From contig CATLGV010000020.1 of NCBI GenBank assembly GCA_949948735.1, forward strand, positions 1-64,000: a stretch of DNA of 64,000 bases, given 5' to 3'. The notes beneath the pieces are model-generated. The model worked only from the letters and a program-made list of their open reading frames with translations. It made no database searches and was not told the DNA's origin. The stretch's first letter is position 1. The number at the start of each line of letters is the position of its first letter. The translations under genes and the position numbers were made by a program. This document shows positions 1 through 11,229 of this stretch, in pieces. Source of the stretch: an uncultured Lachnospiraceae bacterium (GTDB lineage: Bacteria > Bacillota > Clostridia > Lachnospirales > Lachnospiraceae).

Positions 1-17
1 GCAGGAACTTTTCTCTT

Positions 18-46
18 ATTATAGCACCAATCTTGTGAAATCACAA
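18..46 (-). promoter_or_regulatory. Leftward sigma-A type promoter with palindrome
   Basis: TTGTGA and TATAAT separated by 17 bases read leftward out of the window, so they would serve a gene beyond the left edge. The -35 box is one arm of a 14-base palindrome (33-46, TTGTGA-AA-TCACAA). The other arm gives the plus strand a TTGTGA box 18 bases ahead of a weak TATCCT (57-62). The hexamers and palindrome are seen directly. A shared operator for divergent promoters is inferred. Confidence 0.5.
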
Positions 47-118
47 TTTATTCTTGTATCCTGCCGCTGATACCGTCTGGATTGGCTTTCCCTTTCTTTT
101 TGTTCCCTTTAATTAGCC

Positions 119-1042
119 ATGAACTGGGGGATACCGGGGGAAATCACACTCAATGACCCTGTGTATGATATTTTCCTTCATGTCGGCATGTGCGGCAATA
201 TGAATTTTCAGGTGTCGGATTCCCGGAAGTTCATGTTAAAGATGGTCGGCTTCCGGGACGCCTTTGATTCGGAGAGCATGGTCTCGAAGTTTAGAGGGAT
301 TATCAAGCAATATGTAAAATCCTATATTTCAAAAATAATGAATGTCGGCAGGGTCAGCTATTTCGACATGAACGAGAATTTATTTGAAGTGTCCGAGGTG
401 GTAAAGGAGCAGCTGGTTCCGCTTTTTCTGGATTACGGAATAGACGTTATCCAGTTTCATATCGAGACCATAACCGTACCGGATGAGGACTTCGAAGCGG
501 TTAAGAAGGCGAAGGAGGCCAGAGCGTCCCGCATGATTCAGGGATATACATGGCAGGAGGAGCAGCAGATGGATATTGCCCGGACCTTTGTGGGCAACGA
601 GGGCGCAATGGGAAATATCAGCGGAGCTGTGGGCGGCTTTATGATGGGTGGAGCGTTTAGCGGCAGTGTGGCGGAATTGGCGCGCAATGCGCTGAGCCCT
701 GAACGGATACCGACCGGAACTCCGCCCAGGGATCTCAGAAACGCGGCAGACCCGATGGACGGCAGAAGCACTAAGGCTTTTGATGTTGCGGGCTTTGTGA
801 ACCATTACGCGGAAAAGGATTCTAACGGGAATCCGGCGGCGGAAGCGGCTGTTCCGGACACGCCGAAAGCGGGTGCCGGTGAGAAATACTGCAGTAATTG
901 CGGCCATATGCTGGCGCCGGGCGCAAAATTCTGCGATGAATGCGGCACAAAGGTTCAGGCCGGCAATGTGTGCGGTAATTGCGGATACGCGTTTACAACG
1001 GATATGAAGTTCTGTCCGGAATGCGGGACAAAGAGAGTATAA
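119..1042 (+). CDS. SPFH-domain protein with two C-terminal zinc ribbons, 5' end apparently missing
   Basis: The first ~150 residues match the distal half of the SPFH/band-7-like domain found in YdjI-type 'virion core' proteins, including the KWGxP-like entry (NWGIPGEI) and the segment ending in KKAKEARASRM. A Gly-rich linker with GAVGGFMMGG follows. Two CxxC...CxxC zinc ribbons lie in the last 50 residues. Family members usually carry about 60-100 more residues upstream. Here the preceding frame is closed by stops at 68-70 and 110-112, and the ATG has no Shine-Dalgarno sequence. The gene is therefore probably 5'-truncated, either by a rearrangement or by an assembly join. It leads a co-directional run of nine genes. 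The family is thought to form membrane-associated oligomers; the role here is unknown. Confidence 0.7.
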   Translation: MNWGIPGEITLNDPVYDIFLHVGMCGNMNFQVSDSRKFMLKMVGFRDAFDSESMVSKFRGIIKQYVKSYISKIMNVGRVSYFDMNENLFEVSEVVKEQLVPLFLDYGIDVIQFHIETITVPDEDFEAVKKAKEARASRMIQGYTWQEEQQMDIARTFVGNEGAMGNISGAVGGFMMGGAFSGSVAELARNALSPERIPTGTPPRDLRNAADPMDGRSTKAFDVAGFVNHYAEKDSNGNPAAEAAVPDTPKAGAGEKYCSNCGHMLAPGAKFCDECGTKVQAGNVCGNCGYAFTTDMKFCPECGTKRV

Positions 1043-1074
1043 ACGAAGTGGTTTCAAGGAGGAGGGTTACAGGG

Positions 1075-1770
1075 ATGGACGGGAAAAAGAAATTTGGTGC
1101 AATGGCTGCGCTTATCTATCTGGTGGTTTTTGCGGCATATAATCTGTTTGTGTTTATGATTTTCAAGAGCTTTAACGCGGTGTTTTGGATTAGCTACGCA
1201 TTTTTGCTGGTGTCGTATCTTATTCATGTTTTTTGCGCGTTTTCGATTGTTAAAAATTTGAATGTAAGAACCGTATTTTTTGGCATTCCGCTGATGTCAT
1301 TTTCAGTTTATTTTGTATGTGCCGAGCTTTTCTGCAGTATGGTGTTTATGATATTCAGGAATCTTGTGAGCGTGAAGCTTGCAATACTGATACAGAGCCT
1401 GCTGCTTTGCGTGTTTATCATTGTTGCGGCTGTCTCCATTATGACAAGGGACGCCGTACTTCATACCAGCGATAAAATAAAAGAAAACGTGAATTTCATC
1501 AAGGGGCTTCATGTGGACGTTGAAATGCTGATGCACAGAAGCACCGATGCCGAAACGACGGGTGCGCTGAAGAAGCTGGCGGAGACAATAAAATATTCGG
1601 ATCCGATGTCCAATAATGCCGTGGCGGCTCAGGAGCAAATGATATTGCAGTATATGGCGGAGCTGAAGGCGGCCTTTGATGCGGGCGATATGGCCAGGTC
1701 CAGAGAACTCTGCGGTAAAACAGAGCTTCTGTTTCTGGAGAGGAATAAGAAGCTGATGATTTCAAAATAA
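1075..1770 (+). CDS. Four-helix membrane protein of unknown function
   Basis: This 231-residue protein starts at an ATG 9 bases after an AAGGAGGAGG site. An upstream in-frame ATG inside the previous gene lacks such a site. Four hydrophobic segments fill about residues 10-130, followed by a ~100-residue charged, helical cytoplasmic tail. I do not recognise the family. The gene lies 32 bases after the zinc-ribbon SPFH gene and 14 bases before the next, so co-transcription is likely. It could be a membrane anchor for the complex encoded by its neighbours; that is inference from context only. Confidence 0.75.
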   Translation: MDGKKKFGAMAALIYLVVFAAYNLFVFMIFKSFNAVFWISYAFLLVSYLIHVFCAFSIVKNLNVRTVFFGIPLMSFSVYFVCAELFCSMVFMIFRNLVSVKLAILIQSLLLCVFIIVAAVSIMTRDAVLHTSDKIKENVNFIKGLHVDVEMLMHRSTDAETTGALKKLAETIKYSDPMSNNAVAAQEQMILQYMAELKAAFDAGDMARSRELCGKTELLFLERNKKLMISK

Positions 1771-1784
1771 GGAGTACACGGGAA

Positions 1785-3785
1785 ATGGCGGTTTTTGTTG
1801 CGAGAAAGTGTGCGTGCGGCGGAAAGCTGGAGTTTGATTCTGCCAAAAAGATATGGATATGTAAATATTGCGGGACTGTGGTCGAAAGAGAGGCTACATT
1901 CGACAAAATTCACGTAGACGGAATAGAGGGCATAAACGACGTTGTCAGACAGACGCTCAAGGACATTGCCAATCAGAGGATGGACAGCGCCGCTGAAAAT
2001 CTTGAGGATTGCGAGCGAAAGGGGCATAAGCATATCGGAACCCTTTTGGCGCAGCTTGGCTACAACCTGGTCAATATTTCCTGCGCCCAATCTCCGGATG
2101 ACGCAAGGGCGAGTCTGGACAGGGTCAAAATATATGCCGAGCGTCTGAAACAGGAATTTCCGGTGATTGCAGAGGATGAGATTAATCTTTATGAGGAGCT
2201 TGGGGAGGATGCGGCAGACATTTACGCAAGCCTGTTCGTGGTGTATGACACCCTGGGAGATTCCGGAAGACTGGACTATATTTCTTCCAGGCTGCGCCCT
2301 GAAAAGGTTTTTTCGATATCTGCAAACAGGACATTATTGAAGGTAGCGCTGAAAAGGAAAGAATATGACGTCGTTGACAAAATCATAAAAAACGTCGGTC
2401 ATGTCGACAGAAAGGCCGCTTTACAGGATATATCGGAGCATTATCCATCCGGCGGGGATAAAATCCGCCTGATGGACGTATTATTTAATGCGGAAACGGC
2501 GGCGGCCCTGTCAAAAAGGTTTTTTGAGAATTATTTCACGACAAGCAGGGATTCGGCGGATGTAAAAGCCGGGATGGTTCGTCTGTTGAATACGACAGAT
2601 ATACATATCAACGCGGCGGTAGTAGTCAAAAATACCCGGGAGGAGCTCGCCGGCTATGAGGACGCCCGGAATTTATTCAACGCGGTCTATGGCATTAAGC
2701 TCAGCGATCAGGAAACCGAGGCGCTGTTTACGTTTTGCCTGACGGAGAATAAAAGCTATGAGCTGCAAAACGCGTTTTTGGATACGCTGATCGAAAACGA
2801 TGTCTTTGTAGCCCTGAATGCGGGAGCCGTGATTTCATTTCTGGACAGCCCGGCGCCTGCGGGAGAAGAGCAGGCAAAGCCTCTGCGGAAGCTGCTTGGC
2901 TTTCATTTGGACGCCAGAGCATTGGACGCTGTCTACAATTATTACTTAAATAATAATACGGATGACGCGCAGACGAGAAAAAATATCATCGATGTATTGC
3001 TGGTGCCGGGGGCGCCCATATCGACGGGAACCGTAGAAAACTACGTGGTGAAAACGGGGACGGATGCGGACAGCAAGCCGGCGGTTGTAGAGAAAATATT
3101 TGCGACAGGCATTCATAAGGCCTATGTAGGGGATCTGCTGTCGGATTATCTGCTGCATTCCTCCGATTCGGAGGAGGTACGGCGTACAATATTCGAGTAT
3201 TTGACGCAAGAGGGCTTTAAGGTAGATTCCAATGTATTCACGCAATATGTGGCGGATTCGGCGGATGACGCCGGCACAAAGCTTGAACGGGCGAGACAGC
3301 TTGTCCAAAACGGTACGCAAATCAGGGCGGATGCCGTGGATGCGTACATTCAATCGCTCAGACAGCCGGAAGCGTTTTCCGAAGAGCTGCTTGAGCTTCT
3401 GACCGCGCATAATTGTCGAATCGGCACGCAGGCATACGCAAAGTATTTGCTGATGTGCGACGATACGGATAAGGTGCGGCACAGCGGGAAGCTGCTCGAG
3501 GCCCTGGACGGGGAGATCACTGCACCGGATATAAGCATTGACCATAACGGGAACAGCATCTCCTGTAATGTATTTCAGGCGTATGTCCTGAATACCAAAG
3601 ACAGCCTTGAGACCGCGGCTGCAGTGGCAGAGCAGTTTGGCGCGCTGCGAATCAAGCTGAACACGGATATGGTTTCAAACAAGACGGCTTTAAAATTCAA
3701 GAAGTATGTGGGAGAGAATAAGGACGCGCTTTCTCCGGTGGCGTTACAGCTGTGTGAGCAAAACAGGATGTTCTCGCTGTTTTAG
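1785..3785 (+). CDS. Zinc-ribbon protein with long helical-repeat region
   Basis: The 666-residue product begins with a short zinc ribbon (C9xC11 ... C26xxC29), of the TFIIB/DUF-type seen in many Firmicute membrane-stress proteins. The remainder is predicted by eye to be almost entirely alpha-helical, with loosely repeating units of 30-40 residues resembling HEAT or TPR-like solenoids. There is no membrane segment and no nucleotide-binding motif. The start has a GGAG site (AAGGAGTACACGGGAA). The protein is probably a cytosolic scaffold. The shared zinc-ribbon theme with the first gene of the run supports a functional link. Family not recognised. Confidence 0.75.
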   Translation: MAVFVARKCACGGKLEFDSAKKIWICKYCGTVVEREATFDKIHVDGIEGINDVVRQTLKDIANQRMDSAAENLEDCERKGHKHIGTLLAQLGYNLVNISCAQSPDDARASLDRVKIYAERLKQEFPVIAEDEINLYEELGEDAADIYASLFVVYDTLGDSGRLDYISSRLRPEKVFSISANRTLLKVALKRKEYDVVDKIIKNVGHVDRKAALQDISEHYPSGGDKIRLMDVLFNAETAAALSKRFFENYFTTSRDSADVKAGMVRLLNTTDIHINAAVVVKNTREELAGYEDARNLFNAVYGIKLSDQETEALFTFCLTENKSYELQNAFLDTLIENDVFVALNAGAVISFLDSPAPAGEEQAKPLRKLLGFHLDARALDAVYNYYLNNNTDDAQTRKNIIDVLLVPGAPISTGTVENYVVKTGTDADSKPAVVEKIFATGIHKAYVGDLLSDYLLHSSDSEEVRRTIFEYLTQEGFKVDSNVFTQYVADSADDAGTKLERARQLVQNGTQIRADAVDAYIQSLRQPEAFSEELLELLTAHNCRIGTQAYAKYLLMCDDTDKVRHSGKLLEALDGEITAPDISIDHNGNSISCNVFQAYVLNTKDSLETAAAVAEQFGALRIKLNTDMVSNKTALKFKKYVGENKDALSPVALQLCEQNRMFSLF

Positions 3786-3836
3786 CTTTCGGCGCCGTGA
3801 AAGCAGGCAGGAAAGCACAATAAAGGAGGGAAAGGG

Positions 3837-5588
3837 ATGACCGCTGAGCAGGCAGCAGAAGAAGCAGAAGCCATACGGCTTAGAGCCGAGATCAACAGAC
3901 TTGAGGCGCAGATTGAGCGGGCGTGCGCAGAGAATCAGAAGCTGCAGGAGGAGCTGAATACGCTTGTACAGAATATTTATGTACTGGCAGACAACGCAAA
4001 AGTCATGGACGCACAGGTCAATAAAGCCATGAGCGGTGTAAAGAACCGTATCACAGAGGCAGACGTAAGCGTAACGGAGCTGTTTGCCCTGATTGAAGAG
4101 GTTACAGGCGCGTATTTTACATTTAAAAACCTGAGCACCGCATCTAAGAATGTCACGCAGCTTTGCGATGAATATTTTACCAGATTTAAGTTCTTCAACG
4201 AGCTGAGACGAATCACGCTGGGATATGTAATAGGCCTGGACAGACATGTCTGCTCTGACGAGTCCATGCGTAAAAGAGTGGAAGCGGTATATCTGCAAAA
4301 TACAGAGTATTGGCTTGCATACGCTGCAATGGCGGTGATGCTTTGGGCCAGTGACGAGGAGGAAGCGGCAAAGAGGGCAATGTCTAAGGCATTGACCATG
4401 GATTATTATAGCTGTTCGCTTTTTTTCTTATTGATCAATCTGAGATTTACAAGAATTGACGCCGCTAAAAAATGGTATCTCTCCTATCTTGACAGGGTTG
4501 ATACGGAAAATCTTGGCGATGAATGGAGATATTTGCTCCAGGCATATTTGTCGGGCGTGTTTGGCGTTGATCAGAAATTTAATACATTGGTGCATCAGCA
4601 TCTGACGGATATGCTCGAACAAATGGAGAGCATGCATCCTGATTACGGCAGTAAGGTTGCGGAGAGGACGCTGGACTACACCGGGTCGTATATACATATA
4701 ACCGAAAACGAGTTTGAGACGCTGCGAAGAAATTCACCGGAATATGCGGATATAAAGGCAACGCTTTCCGCAGCGGAAAAAAATGAGGTGCTTGCCGTCT
4801 ACTTCAGGAAAATTCTTGAGACCGATAACAAAACAGAGACGGATATGTTTCAGCGCATTGAAAATATATTATACGACCTGATCAATGCATACGACAAGGA
4901 AGAGCTGAAGGTTATCAAGAACAAGAGATACAACGAGATGATTATCAAGGCCAGGGGGGACTTAGGCCAGGCGCAGCGCTATTACAATGTTGAGTTTCCC
5001 GATACCGCCAAAGCACAGGCGTTGGACGATTTGCTGTATGAGTGGGCGTTTGAGGAGGACTTGTCTCAGGTGGACATCACGGTAAAGAGATTTGCGCTTT
5101 GTTATCTGAAAAAGTGGATTGTGAAGGGATTTTCCGCATACCGGGAGGCGTATGGGAAAACGGAGAAGGACAAATACAAAATCGCAATCGACGGCTGGGA
5201 GAGGGAATGCGACGAAAACTCTTATAAAGAAGCCGAGGAGGAGCTCAGAAGGCATTATAACCGGAACCGTTTTTTTGACACGGTCAAGGACAAATATGCG
5301 ATGATTTTCATCGGAATGATTGCAGCGGCCCTGGTCCTGCTGGCGGTTACGGCATTCAGCTTCAACAGGATATCGTTGGTTACCGGTATTTTGTCAGGGG
5401 TAGTGGGCGGCTTTCTGCTCTGGAGAAGGGTATCGGATTTGCAGGCGGTATTGCGGACGCGGAGGGAGCGCGGCTGTATGCTGTTGAAGAAAGCGCTGGA
5501 GGAGCTGAGAGCATGGCGGGCGCTGTATAAGGCTGAGGACGCCAAAAACGAGGCGCTTGTAAAGGTCTTTGACGGCATAGAAATCTAA
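3837..5588 (+). CDS. Coiled-coil protein with C-terminal membrane hairpin (paralog A)
   Basis: This is the first of three paralogs in the run. Residues 1-60 form a charged coiled coil. A helical core follows with the shared signature YWLAYA...W (about 156-170) and NLRF.R..AAKKW (about 201-214). Near residues 485-530 are two adjacent hydrophobic helices (FIGMIAAALVLLAV and TGILSGVVGGFLLW), then a short coiled tail. No P-loop, protease or nuclease motif is visible. The start follows a strong AGGAGGG site. The layout suggests a membrane-anchored scaffold with both long ends in the cytosol. Function unknown; the paralogy is directly visible. Confidence 0.78.
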   Translation: MTAEQAAEEAEAIRLRAEINRLEAQIERACAENQKLQEELNTLVQNIYVLADNAKVMDAQVNKAMSGVKNRITEADVSVTELFALIEEVTGAYFTFKNLSTASKNVTQLCDEYFTRFKFFNELRRITLGYVIGLDRHVCSDESMRKRVEAVYLQNTEYWLAYAAMAVMLWASDEEEAAKRAMSKALTMDYYSCSLFFLLINLRFTRIDAAKKWYLSYLDRVDTENLGDEWRYLLQAYLSGVFGVDQKFNTLVHQHLTDMLEQMESMHPDYGSKVAERTLDYTGSYIHITENEFETLRRNSPEYADIKATLSAAEKNEVLAVYFRKILETDNKTETDMFQRIENILYDLINAYDKEELKVIKNKRYNEMIIKARGDLGQAQRYYNVEFPDTAKAQALDDLLYEWAFEEDLSQVDITVKRFALCYLKKWIVKGFSAYREAYGKTEKDKYKIAIDGWERECDENSYKEAEEELRRHYNRNRFFDTVKDKYAMIFIGMIAAALVLLAVTAFSFNRISLVTGILSGVVGGFLLWRRVSDLQAVLRTRRERGCMLLKKALEELRAWRALYKAEDAKNEALVKVFDGIEI

Positions 5589-5604
5589 CGGAGGAGAAAG
5601 GGAA

Positions 5605-7209
5605 ATGGCGGGCTTATCATACAATGCGGTCAATAATCTCAATGAAACAATTGATTCGTTCAAATCAAAGGTGGATGTGAAAATCGATTCCGTAAATACA
5701 TCTACGGCGAGCATTCAACAGATTACGGATAAGATTTACGATAATATCAGCAAATTGCAGCAGGATATGATTCAAAATGAGGAGAAGCAGTTAGCGCACG
5801 AGAACGTTCTTCGAATTGACCAGATATTGAAGGAGCAGTTTGGCGATCACGAGAGAATCAGAAAAACCGTAATAGGGATTGTGAAGGATTTCGATATAAA
5901 TCTGGTCAGAAACAACACTATTCAGGAAATATCGGAAGAGCTGTGGATAACAAGCTCAAGGTATTGGCTTTCCTATGCGCTGCTGGCCATTACTGCGTGG
6001 ATAAACAATTATCAGGAGGTGGCAGCCAACGCGCTTTCGGAGTGCGTTCGACGCGACCCGGTGAAGGCATCCCTGTTCTTCTGCCTGTTTAACCTGCGCT
6101 TTGGCAGAAACAGCGCTGCGAAAAAATGGTTTTTTGAATACCTCAAAACACTGGATCCGACTCAAATGCACCAGGAATCGGCAATTCTGCTGCAGGCGTA
6201 TTTAAACGGCCTCTTTGGAACGGACAAGGAGCTTGAAAATGATGTCAACAGGGTAATCCGGGGATGGCTTTCGGCGCTCGACGAGCAGCAGGATACCGGA
6301 AAGGAGCTGACAGAGGCTTATCGGAAATATATAGAGCTGCTACCGCCCGCAAAGCAATGTACCTATACCGCGCTGTCAGAGTCCTGCTCGAATTATGACG
6401 CGATTCGGCAGTCCTATGAGAACGTTTCCAAATATGAGAAGCTGATAGCCGGGATAGAGGCGCTGGATGTTGAGCTGGAAGAGCAGACAGAGGCAAATTA
6501 TAAGAGCCGCATAAACGCCATCCTGATAAATCTGATCTCCAATTATGATTCGGAGGAGCTTGATTTAAAGAATCAAAGGCTTTATTTTGGTTTGATTATA
6601 GATAACAACGGACAGGTGAACGCCGCTCAGGCGCAGTACGAGGAATATCAAAACATTCAAAGCGAGAGCTTTAATATCGGAAAACAGATGGTCAAATGGG
6701 CGGTGTACGACGATGCCGGCCAGACGGATATCCATGTTAAAAAATTCGGACTGCAGAATACGAAGGAATGGTTCAGGGAGGCGGTTGAAAATTGGGCGCG
6801 GATGCTTCAGGAGACGCTGCCGCTTGACTTTCCGATTGCAATCGACGTATGGTCGGGAATATCGAACGGGGAGGATCAAAACGAGCAGGTGAAAAGCTTA
6901 AAGGAGCATTTTGAGCATAATAAGTTTCAGCTTAAGTATGTTAATACGCCCAATATAGCTGCGGCGATCGTTTTGCTGCTCTCGGTCGGACTGGCCTTTG
7001 TAACGCCGTTTTCCCTGGCTGCGACTGTGCTGGCGCTGGGCTTTTTGGTATTCCGGATAATAAGAGCCAACAGGGAATTTGCGGTACGTGTTGAAAACGC
7101 GGTTGGGCAGCTCAATTCCTGTATGACAGAGCTGGCTGATTTTAAGCAGTTCTATACGGATGAGAAGGATAAAAAGAATCAGGTGCAAAGCAGGCTTGAG
7201 TATCTGTAA
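5605..7209 (+). CDS. Coiled-coil protein with C-terminal membrane hairpin (paralog B)
   Basis: At 534 residues this is the shortest paralog. It starts 16 bases after paralog A with a GGAGGAGAAAGGG site. The signature recurs as SRYWLSYALLAITAW (about 117-131) and NLRFGRNSAAKKW (about 162-174). Two hydrophobic helices (IAAAIVLLLSVGLAF and AATVLALGFLVF) lie near residues 450-487, followed by a ~45-residue coiled tail. The divergence between A, B and C, with retention of the core signature and membrane hairpin, suggests subunits of one hetero-oligomer rather than recent duplicates. Function unknown. Confidence 0.78.
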   Translation: MAGLSYNAVNNLNETIDSFKSKVDVKIDSVNTSTASIQQITDKIYDNISKLQQDMIQNEEKQLAHENVLRIDQILKEQFGDHERIRKTVIGIVKDFDINLVRNNTIQEISEELWITSSRYWLSYALLAITAWINNYQEVAANALSECVRRDPVKASLFFCLFNLRFGRNSAAKKWFFEYLKTLDPTQMHQESAILLQAYLNGLFGTDKELENDVNRVIRGWLSALDEQQDTGKELTEAYRKYIELLPPAKQCTYTALSESCSNYDAIRQSYENVSKYEKLIAGIEALDVELEEQTEANYKSRINAILINLISNYDSEELDLKNQRLYFGLIIDNNGQVNAAQAQYEEYQNIQSESFNIGKQMVKWAVYDDAGQTDIHVKKFGLQNTKEWFREAVENWARMLQETLPLDFPIAIDVWSGISNGEDQNEQVKSLKEHFEHNKFQLKYVNTPNIAAAIVLLLSVGLAFVTPFSLAATVLALGFLVFRIIRANREFAVRVENAVGQLNSCMTELADFKQFYTDEKDKKNQVQSRLEYL

Positions 7210-7294
7210 ATGATTTCACAAACTCGTTAATGCGTATAGCCTCGGCAAAGCTGAGCGATTAAAGCAAATTATATATTGCGGAAATGGAGAAAAA

Positions 7295-7465
7295 ATGGAA
7301 GAAAACAGCGGAATGGGATTGGGAGAGCTTCTGGAGCAGAGGATTCAGGAGAATTTTGGCTCTTCGGATACGGATACATACGACGTTTCGAACGAGCGTC
7401 TTAAAGAAATGAACAAGAAGCTGCCGGAGTGGAGCCTGGAGCCGCCCTTTAGCTACTTGAAGTGA
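7295..7465 (+). CDS. Small acidic protein, 56 residues
   Basis: A short open frame begins at an ATG 5 bases after a GGAGA site and ends at a TGA overlapping the GTG start of the next gene (AAGTGATT). The product begins MEENSGMGLGELLEQR and is acidic and soluble, ending in EPPFSYLK. The overlap implies translational coupling. The position inside the run, between paralog B and the 172-residue protein, supports it as a real gene although it is short. No family recognised; it may be an adaptor peptide. Confidence 0.5.
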   Translation: MEENSGMGLGELLEQRIQENFGSSDTDTYDVSNERLKEMNKKLPEWSLEPPFSYLK

Positions 7466-7980
7466 TTGCCATGAGCAGGACAAGAACAATCGCATATACC
7501 GAATGGCTCAAATATGTCAGGGCTTCATATGAAAAAGGAAGGCGCTGCAGTGAATTTAAAGAGCTGCAGTGCGTGTCCCCGCTGCTTTCGGGGGCGGAAT
7601 ATGAGAATTATGTTCAGAATGAACTGGCAAGGCTGGAAACGCGGCTTATAAAAGCGGCGCTGAAGGATTTCCAGGCTTTGGTAAACAGGAGCCTTGAGGA
7701 AGCGGATATTTATATCCTTGAGAGAGGAATAAGGCAGCTTAAGGAAAGCGTCGATGCCTGCGTCTTTTTCGACGGCATGGAGGGCTGTTCCGCAGAGATG
7801 AAGAATAGCTTAAAGGAGAGCATCCGCCGTAATTTTATTCTGTTTACGGAGGAATTTGCCAGGTACATAAAAGGGCTCACGGAGTCTGAACGCGGTCCCT
7901 ATGTGGATGAGGTTATTTATACATATAAAAAGGCAAAGATAAAAAATTTTATTCTGGAGCGCACATATTGTGAAAAATAA
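7462..7980 (+). CDS. Small helical protein of unknown function
   Basis: The product has 172 residues from the GTG that overlaps the preceding stop, or 169 from the ATG at 7471; neither has a strong ribosome binding site, which fits coupling to the 56-residue frame. The sequence is mixed-charge and helical throughout, with no membrane segment, signal peptide or metal-binding motif. It immediately precedes the AAA+ ATPase gene. A partner or substrate adaptor of that ATPase is a plausible guess from position only. Confidence 0.65.
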   Translation: MIAMSRTRTIAYTEWLKYVRASYEKGRRCSEFKELQCVSPLLSGAEYENYVQNELARLETRLIKAALKDFQALVNRSLEEADIYILERGIRQLKESVDACVFFDGMEGCSAEMKNSLKESIRRNFILFTEEFARYIKGLTESERGPYVDEVIYTYKKAKIKNFILERTYCEK

Positions 7981-8013
7981 TGATTTTGCGGGGCGTCCGG
8001 CGTGGGGGATTCT

Positions 8014-9513
8014 ATGAGTAATTTTGTTCAGGTCAAAAGAGAAATAATCAATTATGTATATGCAAGGACGCCGTTGATAATCGTGAATACGAACGAGCGG
8101 GAGCGGGTGGAACGGATTCTGAACGAGATTGCGGATGAAGTACAGGCAGGCTTCTTATACTATACCGACGCGAAGCAGGTGCGGTATATCGGCGCCAAGG
8201 GAGAGGGGCTGGATACGGATGATGACCCGTTAGGCTTTTTCATGGGAAAGATCAAAAAGCAAAGAGGGCTCAATATTGTATTAGGAGACGTGAGAAGAGC
8301 TTCCGACGACAATGCATACGCCAGAGAATTAATGAATATACTTTATATGGCGAAAGAAAATAATGCAGTGGTCCTTCTTATAACTGCCGACAGCATCTGG
8401 CCGCGTATTTCGGATTTTGGGATGACTGTCACGCTGGATGTGCCCGATACATCGGAGCGGATTGCGCAGATACAAAGCTTTATCAAAACCTATGGCGGCC
8501 GTTTCCGGATTGAGTGGGACGGCGACGACATCGTTCATGCGGCGGCCGTTTTGAGGGGATTTACCGAGATTCAGATTGAAAACATATTGTCCGCGGAGAT
8601 TATCGGGAGCAAGGGCTTACTCAAAGAAAATATACAGAACATCTCGGCGCAGAAGCGCAAGATCTATCCGAAGGTGGGGACAGTCCAATACATTGAGCCG
8701 TATAAGGCCTGTAATATCTCGGGGATGGACAACCTCAAGGAATGGCTTGACGAAAAGAAAAAAGTGTTTTTCATGCCGGAGGAGGCATTAAAAGAATATG
8801 ATTTGAAAGCGCCCAAGGGAATCTTACTGGTGGGGGTGCCGGGGTGCGGGAAATCCCTTACGGCCAAGCTTGTCTCGCAGGAGTGGAATCTGCCCCTGTT
8901 CCGCTTCGATATCGGATCCGTTTTTGACAAATGGGTGGGAGAGAGCGAAAAGCGGATGCGGGAGGCGCTGCAGTTCGTCGAAAACGTTTCGCCGTGCGTG
9001 CTGTGGATTGATGAAATAGAAAAGGTATTGGCAACGTCTGAAGCGGGCAACGAGACCGGGAAAAGAGTGCTGGGGGAATTTCTGTTCTGGATTCAGGAAT
9101 CCACAAACAAGGTTTTTATGGTCGCAACTGCCAATAATGTGAAAGTGCTTCCGTATGAGCTGTATCGGAAGGGCAGATTCACAGAGGTCTTTTATGCCGG
9201 ACTGCCTGCCGCGGAGGAGAGAAGGAGAACGCTGCAGTACTATATAAAGGTATCGTTGAAAAAAGAGCTTTCGCCGGAAATAATTGACAGACTTGTCGTT
9301 TTGACAGACGGATATTCTTATTCCGATATAGAAACCGCAGTGAAAGAGGTGGCGCAAAAGGTGATTATACATAAGGACGCCATGTCAACGGATATGCTGA
9401 CGGCTGCGATCAAATCAATGATTCCGATTTCGCGAATCAATCCGGAGCTGGTGCAGGAGATTGACAGGTGGGGAAAAGAGAGAGCGGTGAATGTATCAAG
9501 GGAGGTGTGCTGA
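8014..9513 (+). CDS. Ycf46-like AAA+ ATPase
   Basis: The chosen ATG (499 residues) follows a GTGGGGGA site; a GTG 12 bases upstream is possible. The N-terminal ~200 residues match the Ycf46-type domain (ARTPLIIVNTNERERV), followed by a single AAA+ module. Walker A is GVPGCGKS at about 274-281 and Walker B is LWIDEIEK near 330-337. A GRF arginine-containing segment and a C-terminal helical lid follow. Related proteins occur in cyanobacteria, plastids and scattered bacteria; their mechanism is poorly known, but the fold implies remodelling of protein complexes. This is the only gene of the run with a clear energy-coupling motif. Confidence 0.88.
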   Translation: MSNFVQVKREIINYVYARTPLIIVNTNERERVERILNEIADEVQAGFLYYTDAKQVRYIGAKGEGLDTDDDPLGFFMGKIKKQRGLNIVLGDVRRASDDNAYARELMNILYMAKENNAVVLLITADSIWPRISDFGMTVTLDVPDTSERIAQIQSFIKTYGGRFRIEWDGDDIVHAAAVLRGFTEIQIENILSAEIIGSKGLLKENIQNISAQKRKIYPKVGTVQYIEPYKACNISGMDNLKEWLDEKKKVFFMPEEALKEYDLKAPKGILLVGVPGCGKSLTAKLVSQEWNLPLFRFDIGSVFDKWVGESEKRMREALQFVENVSPCVLWIDEIEKVLATSEAGNETGKRVLGEFLFWIQESTNKVFMVATANNVKVLPYELYRKGRFTEVFYAGLPAAEERRRTLQYYIKVSLKKELSPEIIDRLVVLTDGYSYSDIETAVKEVAQKVIIHKDAMSTDMLTAAIKSMIPISRINPELVQEIDRWGKERAVNVSREVC

Positions 9514-11229
9514 TTGAGTAATATGGCATTGAAGGCGGAAGTGAACAGGCTTGAATCAGAATTGCGCAAAATCAAACGCGAAAACGATAAGCTAAAGTCG
9601 GAAATCACGTCGACTGTTCACAGCGTAAATCAGGCAGAACAGGAACTGTCAGGCTACAATCAGCATATTAAGGATGCGCTTGAAACGGCAAACGGCAGTA
9701 TTAACAGCTCGATAGACCGCGCGCTGGGCGCATATGAGCTGCAGGGACAGATTGACCGGCTGTATACGAGGTACAAGGCGATAGAGCTCGCAAACAAACG
9801 GCTTCGCGCCCTGAACAACAAGAAGTATTATGAGTTCAATAATTACAGGACAATAAGAAAAATTGTACGGGGAATGATGGACAATCTCGACCTTGGTATG
9901 GTAAGCGACGCCGTCATATATAAATCCGTTGAGCGGCAGCACTTGTTGACGCCGGATTACTGGCTGACGAGCGCGCTGATCAGCATAATGGCGTGGAAGT
10001 CTGATGATAAGGCGCTGGCCGACCGCGCGGTGGAGTCCGCTTTTAAGCTGGACAGGAAGAACAGCAGTATCTTCTATATGATTTTCAATCTGCGCATGGA
10101 CAGGAATGCCGCGGCGGTAAAGTGGTTTCTGGAATATCAGAAATGCGATTTAAAGGGAAGTGACGAAAGCACTTTCCTGATGATGTTTTCCCTGATAAGT
10201 AAAACCCTGTCGGATAATGTCGATGACGAGACGTCGGAAATGATTTCAACGTATATTCACAGACTGATTGTGGATTGTGCCGGAAAGGAAGGCTACAGTG
10301 AAGCGGATATTGTCGGCCGTATCCGGCAGAAGATGGAGCGGCTTGCGAAAGCAAAGGATTATGAGCTGCCGTCACTGGCGAAATACTGCGGGGATTATAA
10401 TGTTATCAGCCGTATGCTGACGCTTGCATACAATAACTATAATATTCTGGAATTGATATTAAAGATTGTTCATGTGCCGATTGCCGAAAGAAATACATAC
10501 TTGAAGGAGTACCTTAACGAATTGCTGGAGCAGCCCAATGACGCGGAGCTTGAGACCTACAATGAGATAGCGTATAACGAGCTGGTCATTAGCATGGACG
10601 GGGACGTGGAGGGGGCCAGAGCGCGTTTTGCCGGGGAGCTCGAAAAAAGAGGGGCCGATTTCAATATAATTTCGACCATTATCGCGTGGATATATGATTT
10701 CGGGAATGAAGATATCAACGGGCAGATGCGCCTCAATATGTTTACCCTGATCAAGACGCTTCAGGACAAGGCGGCGAGCGGCTACTTTGAAAATTATCGC
10801 GCGATGTTTCGGAAGGTGCACCCCATAAGCGTGCAGGATTATTCCGCAGACGCGGATTTAACGGACGAGGACAAGGAGGTGGGCAGAGCCGAGGCCTTTT
10901 ACACGGACAAGCAGAAACGGGAGCTTTTGGCGGTGAAGAATCTGGGTGCGTATATTGCCCTTGGAATCGGCGCCGCCTGCGGCGCTGCCAGCTTCTTTCT
11001 AACGCCGTTTTTGCTTGCGGGACTTGGGGCGGGCGCGGCTGCAGGCGCCGGTATATTGATATCCAACAGGCATAAGAAAAAAGATATTGCGCGCAGAATC
11101 CAAACGCAGAAGGAAGGCGTTGTCGAAATCCTTCATAAGCTCTTTGAGGAGTTTGGGCGGCTGCAGGCGCTGTATAAGGAATACGACGGCATTTCTGCCA
11201 GAATAGAGGAAGAAATTGCAAAATTATAA
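9514..11229 (+). CDS. Coiled-coil protein with C-terminal membrane hairpin (paralog C)
   Basis: The TTG start directly abuts the stop of the ATPase gene and sits 8 bases after GGAGG; an ATG 9 bases further in is the alternative. The 571-residue product has an N-terminal coiled coil (about 5-110), the paralog signature (DYWLTSALISIMAW near 148-161; NLRMDRNAAAVKW near 191-203) and a Gly/Ala-rich membrane hairpin near 475-520. It closes the nine-gene run. A hairpin at about 11245-11276 follows without a clear U-tract, so termination there is uncertain. Function unknown. Confidence 0.78.
   Translation: MSNMALKAEVNRLESELRKIKRENDKLKSEITSTVHSVNQAEQELSGYNQHIKDALETANGSINSSIDRALGAYELQGQIDRLYTRYKAIELANKRLRALNNKKYYEFNNYRTIRKIVRGMMDNLDLGMVSDAVIYKSVERQHLLTPDYWLTSALISIMAWKSDDKALADRAVESAFKLDRKNSSIFYMIFNLRMDRNAAAVKWFLEYQKCDLKGSDESTFLMMFSLISKTLSDNVDDETSEMISTYIHRLIVDCAGKEGYSEADIVGRIRQKMERLAKAKDYELPSLAKYCGDYNVISRMLTLAYNNYNILELILKIVHVPIAERNTYLKEYLNELLEQPNDAELETYNEIAYNELVISMDGDVEGARARFAGELEKRGADFNIISTIIAWIYDFGNEDINGQMRLNMFTLIKTLQDKAASGYFENYRAMFRKVHPISVQDYSADADLTDEDKEVGRAEAFYTDKQKRELLAVKNLGAYIALGIGAACGAASFFLTPFLLAGLGAGAAAGAGILISNRHKKKDIARRIQTQKEGVVEILHKLFEEFGRLQALYKEYDGISARIEEEIAKL

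Follow-up and report, generated by a model that had tools for sequence, protein, structure and literature searches.

A locus from an uncultured Lachnospiraceae bacterium joins an SPFH membrane module to a conserved coiled-coil and AAA+ ATPase module

Introduction

What do nine closely spaced genes build that together encode an SPFH-type protein with zinc ribbons, a multi-helix membrane protein, an AAA+ ATPase and three related coiled-coil proteins? This question is raised by positions 119 to 11,229 of a 64,000-nucleotide stretch of DNA from an uncultured Lachnospiraceae bacterium (assembly GCA_949948735.1, contig CATLGV010000020.1), the whole of which is referred to here as the window. An earlier note, made from the sequence alone, had read the genes as one co-oriented, closely packed system. 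The nine open reading frames (ORFs) are indeed all located on the plus strand and follow each other at distances of 32, 14, 51, 16, 85, -4, 21 and 0 bases, but the first is the 3' part of a gene, and the single system proved to be a fusion of two conserved modules, each of which is also found apart. One comprises the SPFH protein, a membrane protein (TM4) and a zinc-ribbon protein; the other, hereafter the core module, comprises a coiled-coil membrane protein (CC), two small proteins (SM1 and SM2) and the ATPase (AAA). Literature searches returned no paper that was recognised as describing the nine-gene composition or the core module.

Results

Conservation of the core module

CC, SM1, SM2, AAA and a further protein of 160 amino acids (X160) are encoded as one unit on plasmids of Comamonas and Komagataeibacter, and likewise in a Fusobacterium record. 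The Streptococcus record Javan368 contains CC, SM2, AAA and X160. A scan of 84,980 species genomes yielded 135 relatives of the simple CC type. From the best 80 of these, three nearly identical loci of streptococci were removed and other near-copies retained, which left 77 loci. The 62 of these with at least 6.5 kb downstream of CC served for the core counts, in which genes were scored on the same strand within 9 kb of CC. As the hidden Markov models (HMMs) used for counting were built from few, AAA-linked seeds, the figures refer to the simple CC type.

AAA, SM2 and X160 all accompanied CC in 61 of the 62 loci, and SM1 did so in 58; X160 was located upstream of CC in 19 loci and downstream in 42. 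Loci with CC, SM2, AAA and X160 were found in five phyla, i.e. Bacillota, Pseudomonadota (L137), Spirochaetota (L127), Fusobacteriota (L055) and Actinomycetota (L111), so that a neighbourhood consistent across genera holds for the core. To judge by its length, the sole exception (L088) is probably identical with contig L031, in which CC lies beside genes for vWA (6.6e-13) and Tubulin_2 (2.7e-50) proteins instead of AAA (3007-10448, minus strand). A gene for an ATPase of about 890 amino acids was observed near the core module in ten non-redundant loci (L026, L029, L032, L068, L073, L078, L080, L081, L096 and L100), and both members that were scanned singly are HerA-like. TM4 was near only one of the 62 CC loci. 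SPFH matches, obtained in ten of them, were not used, as zinc ribbons alone may cause such matches.

The reverse test was an AAA search of 391 genomes of the class, with three candidates scored per genome. The AAA subfamily tracks CC, because full-length matches above 690 bits occurred solely in three genomes, all with CC, and the seven other AAAs scored at most 320 bits in genomes without a CC match. In one further genome of this set (G617) CC is present and AAA is cut by the contig end.

In the window, CC, SM1, SM2 and AAA are encoded together on one strand. X160 and the C-terminal tail of AAA, both kept by the standard core module, are missing, and the locus is therefore a hybrid variant rather than a standard member.

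Recurrence of the hybrid arrangement

The third coiled-coil protein of the window, CCc, was used as query against 250 genomes of the family, and matches were obtained in eight, own genome included. The whole hybrid was present in one of the 249 other genomes (G149), which belongs to another genus. Here the complete cluster has the same order and SPFH is intact, but three additional genes stand in front of CCa, one of which encodes a HerA-like ATPase (HerA_C, 5.5e-7). In a second genome (G240), CCa (as two ORFs), CCb, SM1, SM2, AAA and the start of CCc are located on a 6.4-kb contig. Because this contig begins inside CCa and the search for TM4 gave no match in G240, fusion of both modules is established for the window and G149 only. 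Recurrence in G149 and, for the core, in other phyla argues that gene order and content reflect more than chance.

The ATPase, its tail and X160

The gene at 8002..9513 (plus strand; alternative ATG at 8014) encodes the one AAA+ ATPase that the earlier note had reported (PF00004, 5.6e-31). It consists of an N-terminal region without Walker A and one complete AAA domain, in which Walker A (at 278, the only occurrence of the pattern), Walker B, sensor 1 and the arginine finger are intact. Among PDB sequences this domain is closest to those of Cdc48/VCP, and it resembles Ycf46-like ATPases in having an N-terminal region without Walker A; the name 'Ycf46' comes from the earlier note, and no library match bears it. 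In a search with the nine proteins, NCBIfam gave AAA relatives such as CdvC, CDC48 and FtsH, with scores well short of the family cut-offs, and a few further matches that are weak. Plasmid-encoded proteins are 29-37% identical over 92-99% of the length among the 20 matches listed, most being named 'AAA family ATPase'. The CC-linked AAAs form a clade of their own (100/100), to which seven similarly long AAAs from other genomes of the class do not belong and in which the hybrid lineage is placed beside all simple-module AAAs.

A basic-hydrophobic C-terminal tail was present in 74 of 77 AAAs, most commonly TRKVLV (41 of 77). The three without it are those of the window, G149 and G240, and these are also the genomes in which an X160 search gave no match, both control genomes of the same search being positive. 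A similar tail (RR..IL-like) ends 13 of 74 SM2 proteins (Paenibacillus, Burkholderiales, Komagataeibacter and a Peptococcaceae contig), and the simple-type SM1 ends that were displayed carry V-x-V-R-R-like residues. SM1 of the window (7295..7465, plus strand; 56 amino acids, motif P-x-W-x-L-x-P-P) lacks this arginine end of its relatives. Judged from the co-loss in one lineage, the basic-hydrophobic tails of AAA, SM2 and SM1 are probably bound by X160 in the standard module; in the hybrid lineage X160 and the tail of AAA have both been lost. The absence of X160 is a trait of the lineage, because G149, in which SPFH is intact, is also without it.

The three coiled-coil paralogs

CCa (3837..5588), CCb (5605..7209) and CCc (9514..11229 from a TTG start; ATG at 9523), all on the plus strand, had been described as paralogous coiled-coil proteins ending in a membrane hairpin, and this description was borne out. 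A search with CCc retrieves both CCa (3.9e-33) and CCb (3.7e-29), and 41 of 42 CC proteins have a hydrophobic stretch near the C-terminus. The structure model of CCb shows a long helix (33-98), a TPR-like solenoid (about 79-372) and a long helical hairpin (425-521) with a hydrophobic tip. No Foldseek match at E 0.001 or better was found for this fold in PDB or BFVD. Pfam matches of the three proteins are weak and below cut-offs, those of CCa and CCc being mostly to coiled-coil families; none of CC, SM2 and X160 reaches a Pfam or NCBIfam cut-off.

In a tree of 42 CC proteins, the seven rows from the window, G149 and G240 fall on one side of a branch (100/99). CCa and CCc each pair with their G149 ortholog, and CCb with its orthologs in G149 and G240 (100% support); the triplication is therefore older than the split of these genera, and the three subunits were kept together. 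CC and AAA trees both separate the hybrid lineage from the simple modules, with a warning of the tree program about long branches at the hybrid lineage.

The SPFH-TM4 platform and its partners

TM4 (1075..1770, plus strand), previously called a four-helix membrane protein, has four or five membrane helices in its N-terminal half according to hydropathy, followed by a soluble tail. Of the 250 family genomes, 21 contain TM4, at 22 places in all, and it is the usual partner of this type of SPFH protein: an SPFH gene adjoins it at 20 of these places, the exceptions being L186 and L188 (in L188 a weak match within a 565-residue protein). The next gene in the window, ZRsol (1785..3785, plus strand), encodes N-terminal zinc-ribbon-like cysteines and about 600 residues without known domain. 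Its reported zinc ribbon is retained with reserve, as the motifs C-x-C and C-x2-C are present but the Pfam match is weak (E 0.036).

When 18 zinc-ribbon proteins from 17 loci were examined with Pfam, TIR_2 was detected in 11 proteins from ten loci (L115, L170, L171, L172, L173, L174, L178, L180, L182 and L183), and the zinc-ribbon TIR protein in these ten loci has the position that ZRsol has in the window. TIR_2 was not found by Pfam in the zinc-ribbon proteins of the window, L026, L050, L176, L177, L186 and L194. The TIR_2 proteins near SPFH-TM4 pairs often also have TPR matches; a name for this arrangement was not found.

In a Fibrobacterota contig (L115), SPFH, TM4 and the zinc-ribbon TIR gene are directly followed by a CC gene that runs off the contig. 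The L115 protein branches within the simple CC clade, so that CC was apparently added to the platform on more than one occasion. CC without AAA occurs in G042, G428 and G625, where the arrangement is SPFH-TM4-zinc ribbon-CC. In G319, a CC gene (L048 9595-11346) has no labelled AAA, SM2 or X160 in the fetched stretch, and several genes after it encode products starting in zinc-ribbon-like cysteines.

In four further genomes, TM4 has another type of neighbour, a Vps4-like AAA beside a Snf7-like protein, observed in L176 (5496-7225, minus), L186 (4934-6700, minus), L194 (7292-9643, plus) and L195 (7434-9787, minus). All four Vps4-like AAAs match Vps4_C and that of L176 also matches MIT (4.7e-4; Vps4_C 1.2e-3); SPFH is near three of the four (L176, L194 and L195). 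The Snf7-like protein of L176 matches Snf7 at E 0.038 over its length, and its L186 homolog at 4.2e-5, below the Pfam cut-off. L194 and L195, from another family, contain SPFH, a weak TM4 match, two proteins sized like the Snf7-like one and the Vps4-like AAA; Pfam gave no Snf7 match for these homologs, and a PDB sequence search with two Snf7-like rows found no ESCRT-III structure. The pair is a possible bacterial ESCRT-III/Vps4 pair.

The interrupted SPFH gene

The ORF at 119..1042 (plus strand) encodes an SPFH-type protein with C-terminal zinc ribbons, as the earlier note had stated (Band_7_1, 1.8e-15; double zinc ribbon, 2.1e-11). It is the 3' part of a gene broken at a contig edge and not a whole gene: position 1 of the window is base 1 of contig C20, two stops lie in the SPFH frame upstream of 119, and the product covers positions 81-207 of the Band_7_1 profile and is 70% identical to residues 95-396 of an intact relative of 398 residues. 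The coding sequence for profile positions 14-87 is found close to the end of contig C5 (L004 1420-1725), with about 108 bases that are foreign to the gene behind it.

Foreign sequence thus flanks the split at both ends (window 1..118 and L004 1726-1833), its 108-118 bases being close to a k-mer overlap length. The window's first 118 bases, next to the SPFH gene, are one end of an insertion or assembly break; there is no second copy of the first 130 bases in the genome and no Rfam match, and an intron was rejected on these grounds. The foreign ends suggest a collapsed mobile element lost from the assembly, because their length is near the k-mer overlap, and the break may be an assembly artefact. 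That the locus is a decaying remnant in this strain is very improbable: SPFH is split over two contig ends with foreign bases at each and X160 was not found, but the eight other ORFs show no interruption along the extent of their G149 relatives, to which they are 50-79% identical (SM2, 30%), and G149 lacks X160 with SPFH intact.

Remaining features

SM2 (7462..7980, plus strand; 172 amino acids) adjoins CC in 61 of 62 core loci. TM4, SM1 and SM2 had no Pfam match at E 1. Between CCc and the next gene, an aspartyl-tRNA synthetase gene by eye, there are 173 bases. Promoter and terminator scans gave 25 and 16 sites compared with 15.7 and 11.5 in shuffles and were not informative.

Relation to defence systems, phages and mobile elements

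A known defence system as the main explanation was rejected after PADLOC (2023) scans of the nine proteins and of 139 of 272 selected neighbour proteins, and is retained as a rival below. Among the nine, the AAA core matches IetA models (1.5e-30) with no IetS match and no whole system, and CCc has weak coiled-coil matches (LmuB, 2.3e-4; JetC, 1.1e-3). For the neighbours, the PADLOC matches listed (25 of 45 families) comprise HerA-like proteins and single matches. Zinc ribbons are commonest among the Pfam matches listed (25 of 177), with YARHG in five, M48 in four and SH3_3 in three of the 139 proteins.

CC matches were found in one of 50,697 phage records and in one viral contig. A phage or conjugation module was likewise rejected; in PHROGs, phrog_8638, a family of unknown function, matches residues 9-502 of the Javan368 AAA and 116-500 of the window AAA, further AAA families match its core, and for CC and SM2 there are weak matches only (best 4.6e-4). 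An integrase remnant precedes the core module in Javan368, and this record breaks off exactly where X160 ends, at its last codon or stop, so that its boundary is doubtful. In Streptococcus oralis the module lies downstream of integrase remnants beside an rpsD-like gene, as judged by eye (L056 8953-14257; L058 and L060 near 9280). Cargo of a 'satellite phage' is not claimed for Javan368, as the Streptococcus infantis copy has other surroundings and the record boundary is doubtful.

Discussion

The reading that we favour, at somewhat under an even chance, is that the ATPase, for which SM2 serves as adaptor, remodels CC scaffolds anchored in the membrane on an SPFH platform. SPFH and TM4 would oligomerise into this platform on the inside of the membrane, and beside it the three CC paralogs would insert their C-terminal hairpins. 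The paralogs might co-assemble via their coiled coils to a hetero-oligomeric scaffold with the TPR-like solenoids toward the cytoplasm, and SM2, together with SM1, would bring the AAA+ hexamer to it. ATP hydrolysis would then pull, disassemble or rearrange the scaffold, and the membrane patch could thereby be remodelled, cleared of trapped proteins or reset, comparable to the action of Vps4 on ESCRT-III. The anatomy is as described above; every functional step is inferred. Support comes from the conserved core, the intact AAA motifs, the CCb model and the joint loss of tail and X160. L176, L194 and L195, where genes for a Vps4-like AAA and a Snf7-like protein occur in the vicinity of SPFH and of a gene resembling TM4, speak for it as well, and so does L031 with its Tubulin_2 and vWA neighbours. 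The earlier description as 'a membrane-bound, ATP-driven scaffold or stress complex' fits composition and reading as regards membrane, ATP and scaffold; 'stress' is unsupported. PspA is not encoded in the locus.

The proposed machine resembles Psp/Ydj systems or ESCRT and is a member of neither. According to the available sections of PMC8581546, PspA foci in Bacillus subtilis need YdjI, an SPFH protein with a zinc-finger motif. The window shares with PspA-YdjGHI a Band_7_1 SPFH protein that carries a zinc motif at its C-terminus, as well as membrane proteins encoded next to it. It differs in having no PspA among the nine, and the four-gene operon as given in those sections has no counterpart of the ATPase, SM1, SM2 or the CC paralogs. 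With ESCRT-III/Vps4, including the archaeal systems, it shares an AAA+ domain, a coiled-coil partner and an SPFH protein with zinc ribbon (PMC10936438, in the portion available). Unlike Vps4, the AAA of the window matches neither MIT nor Vps4_C at E 1; CC is modelled as a TPR-like solenoid, and Snf7 is not among the Pfam matches listed for the nine proteins (for CCc, 25 of 27 are listed). The accessible part of PMC11237479 describes AAA+ ATPases and Band-7 proteins associated around PspA as well as Vps4-like ATPases transferred to bacteria, with Snf7 displaced by a TPR/6TM protein in some; the order CC-SM1-SM2-AAA-X160 is not among what that part describes. Tubulin_2 (FtsZl1)-vWA is a predicted membrane-remodelling system with vWA proteins, kinases, GTPases and OmpA proteins as partners (PMC2875224, from the text available). 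One CC locus (L031) has both kinds of neighbour, but the nine proteins of the window have no Tubulin_2 among the matches listed and no vWA above the Pfam cut-off.

The main rival, which we consider unlikely, is an immune system, either anti-phage or causing cell suicide, in which SPFH-TM4 senses membrane damage by phage or toxin and a TIR or CC/AAA effector kills or arrests the cell. It would account for the TIR_2 domains of the zinc-ribbon partners in ten of 17 loci, the CC gene directly behind such a set in L115, a TIR protein downstream of the core module in L030, and the match of the AAA core to IetA models and to phage families such as phrog_8638. The patchy spread of CC (eight of 250 family and eight of 391 class genomes, own included, that of G413 in the class set being a weak match), its copies on Komagataeibacter and Comamonas plasmids and its vicinity to integrase remnants in S. 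oralis point in the same direction. However, the matches listed for the 139 neighbours, viewed without a background control, show no evident excess of defence genes, PADLOC assigned no whole system, CC is nearly absent from the phage records, and Pfam recognised no toxic or nucleotide-cleaving domain in the nine proteins.

An improbable alternative is envelope-stress response or protein quality control, with an SPFH cage and an AAA that unfolds membrane proteins as in HflKC-FtsH, or with the whole replacing PspA. The requirement of YdjI for PspA foci (PMC8581546, sections as above), the existence of SPFH-AAA+ protease complexes (PMC13220708, in the part available) and the YARHG, M48 and SH3_3 domains of the neighbours are in line with it. 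Yet Pfam detected no protease domain in the window AAA, which unlike FtsH has no fused M41 zinc protease, and the core module mostly occurs without TM4. The one PspA found in the genome is encoded elsewhere: it lies on contig C2 (G000:C2:42727-43395, minus; L002 1219-3380, minus) near another SPFH gene and a gene with zinc-ribbon-like cysteines, an arrangement resembling the ydj operon.

Beyond the remodelling of CC scaffolds, a wider proposal is offered tentatively. SPFH-TM4 may be a bacterial membrane platform whose outputs are interchangeable: a TIR protein in some loci, in others a pair of the ESCRT-III/Vps4 type, and as a third the CC/AAA machine. In the window, the platform would then have captured and re-engineered this machine by triplicating the scaffold subunit and dropping X160 and the tail code. 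CC/AAA/X160 would itself represent a so far undescribed kind of membrane machine, with X160 as reader of a common basic-hydrophobic C-terminal tail, R-[KRN]-[VIL]-[LI]. If so, SPFH scaffolds, TIR effectors and AAA+ remodellers would be linked in bacteria, and there would be a bacterial setting with ESCRT-III/Vps4-like genes beside SPFH. The old question of what bacterial SPFH proteins organise would become directly testable through defined partner modules. The TIR link leaves some probability for an immune function despite the lack of a defence-island signal. The core module has almost fixed content in five phyla, yet CC, SM2 and X160 belong to no family that Pfam or NCBIfam recognises at its cut-offs; this recurrence in very different bacteria points to an undescribed machine that reshapes or polices the cell membrane.

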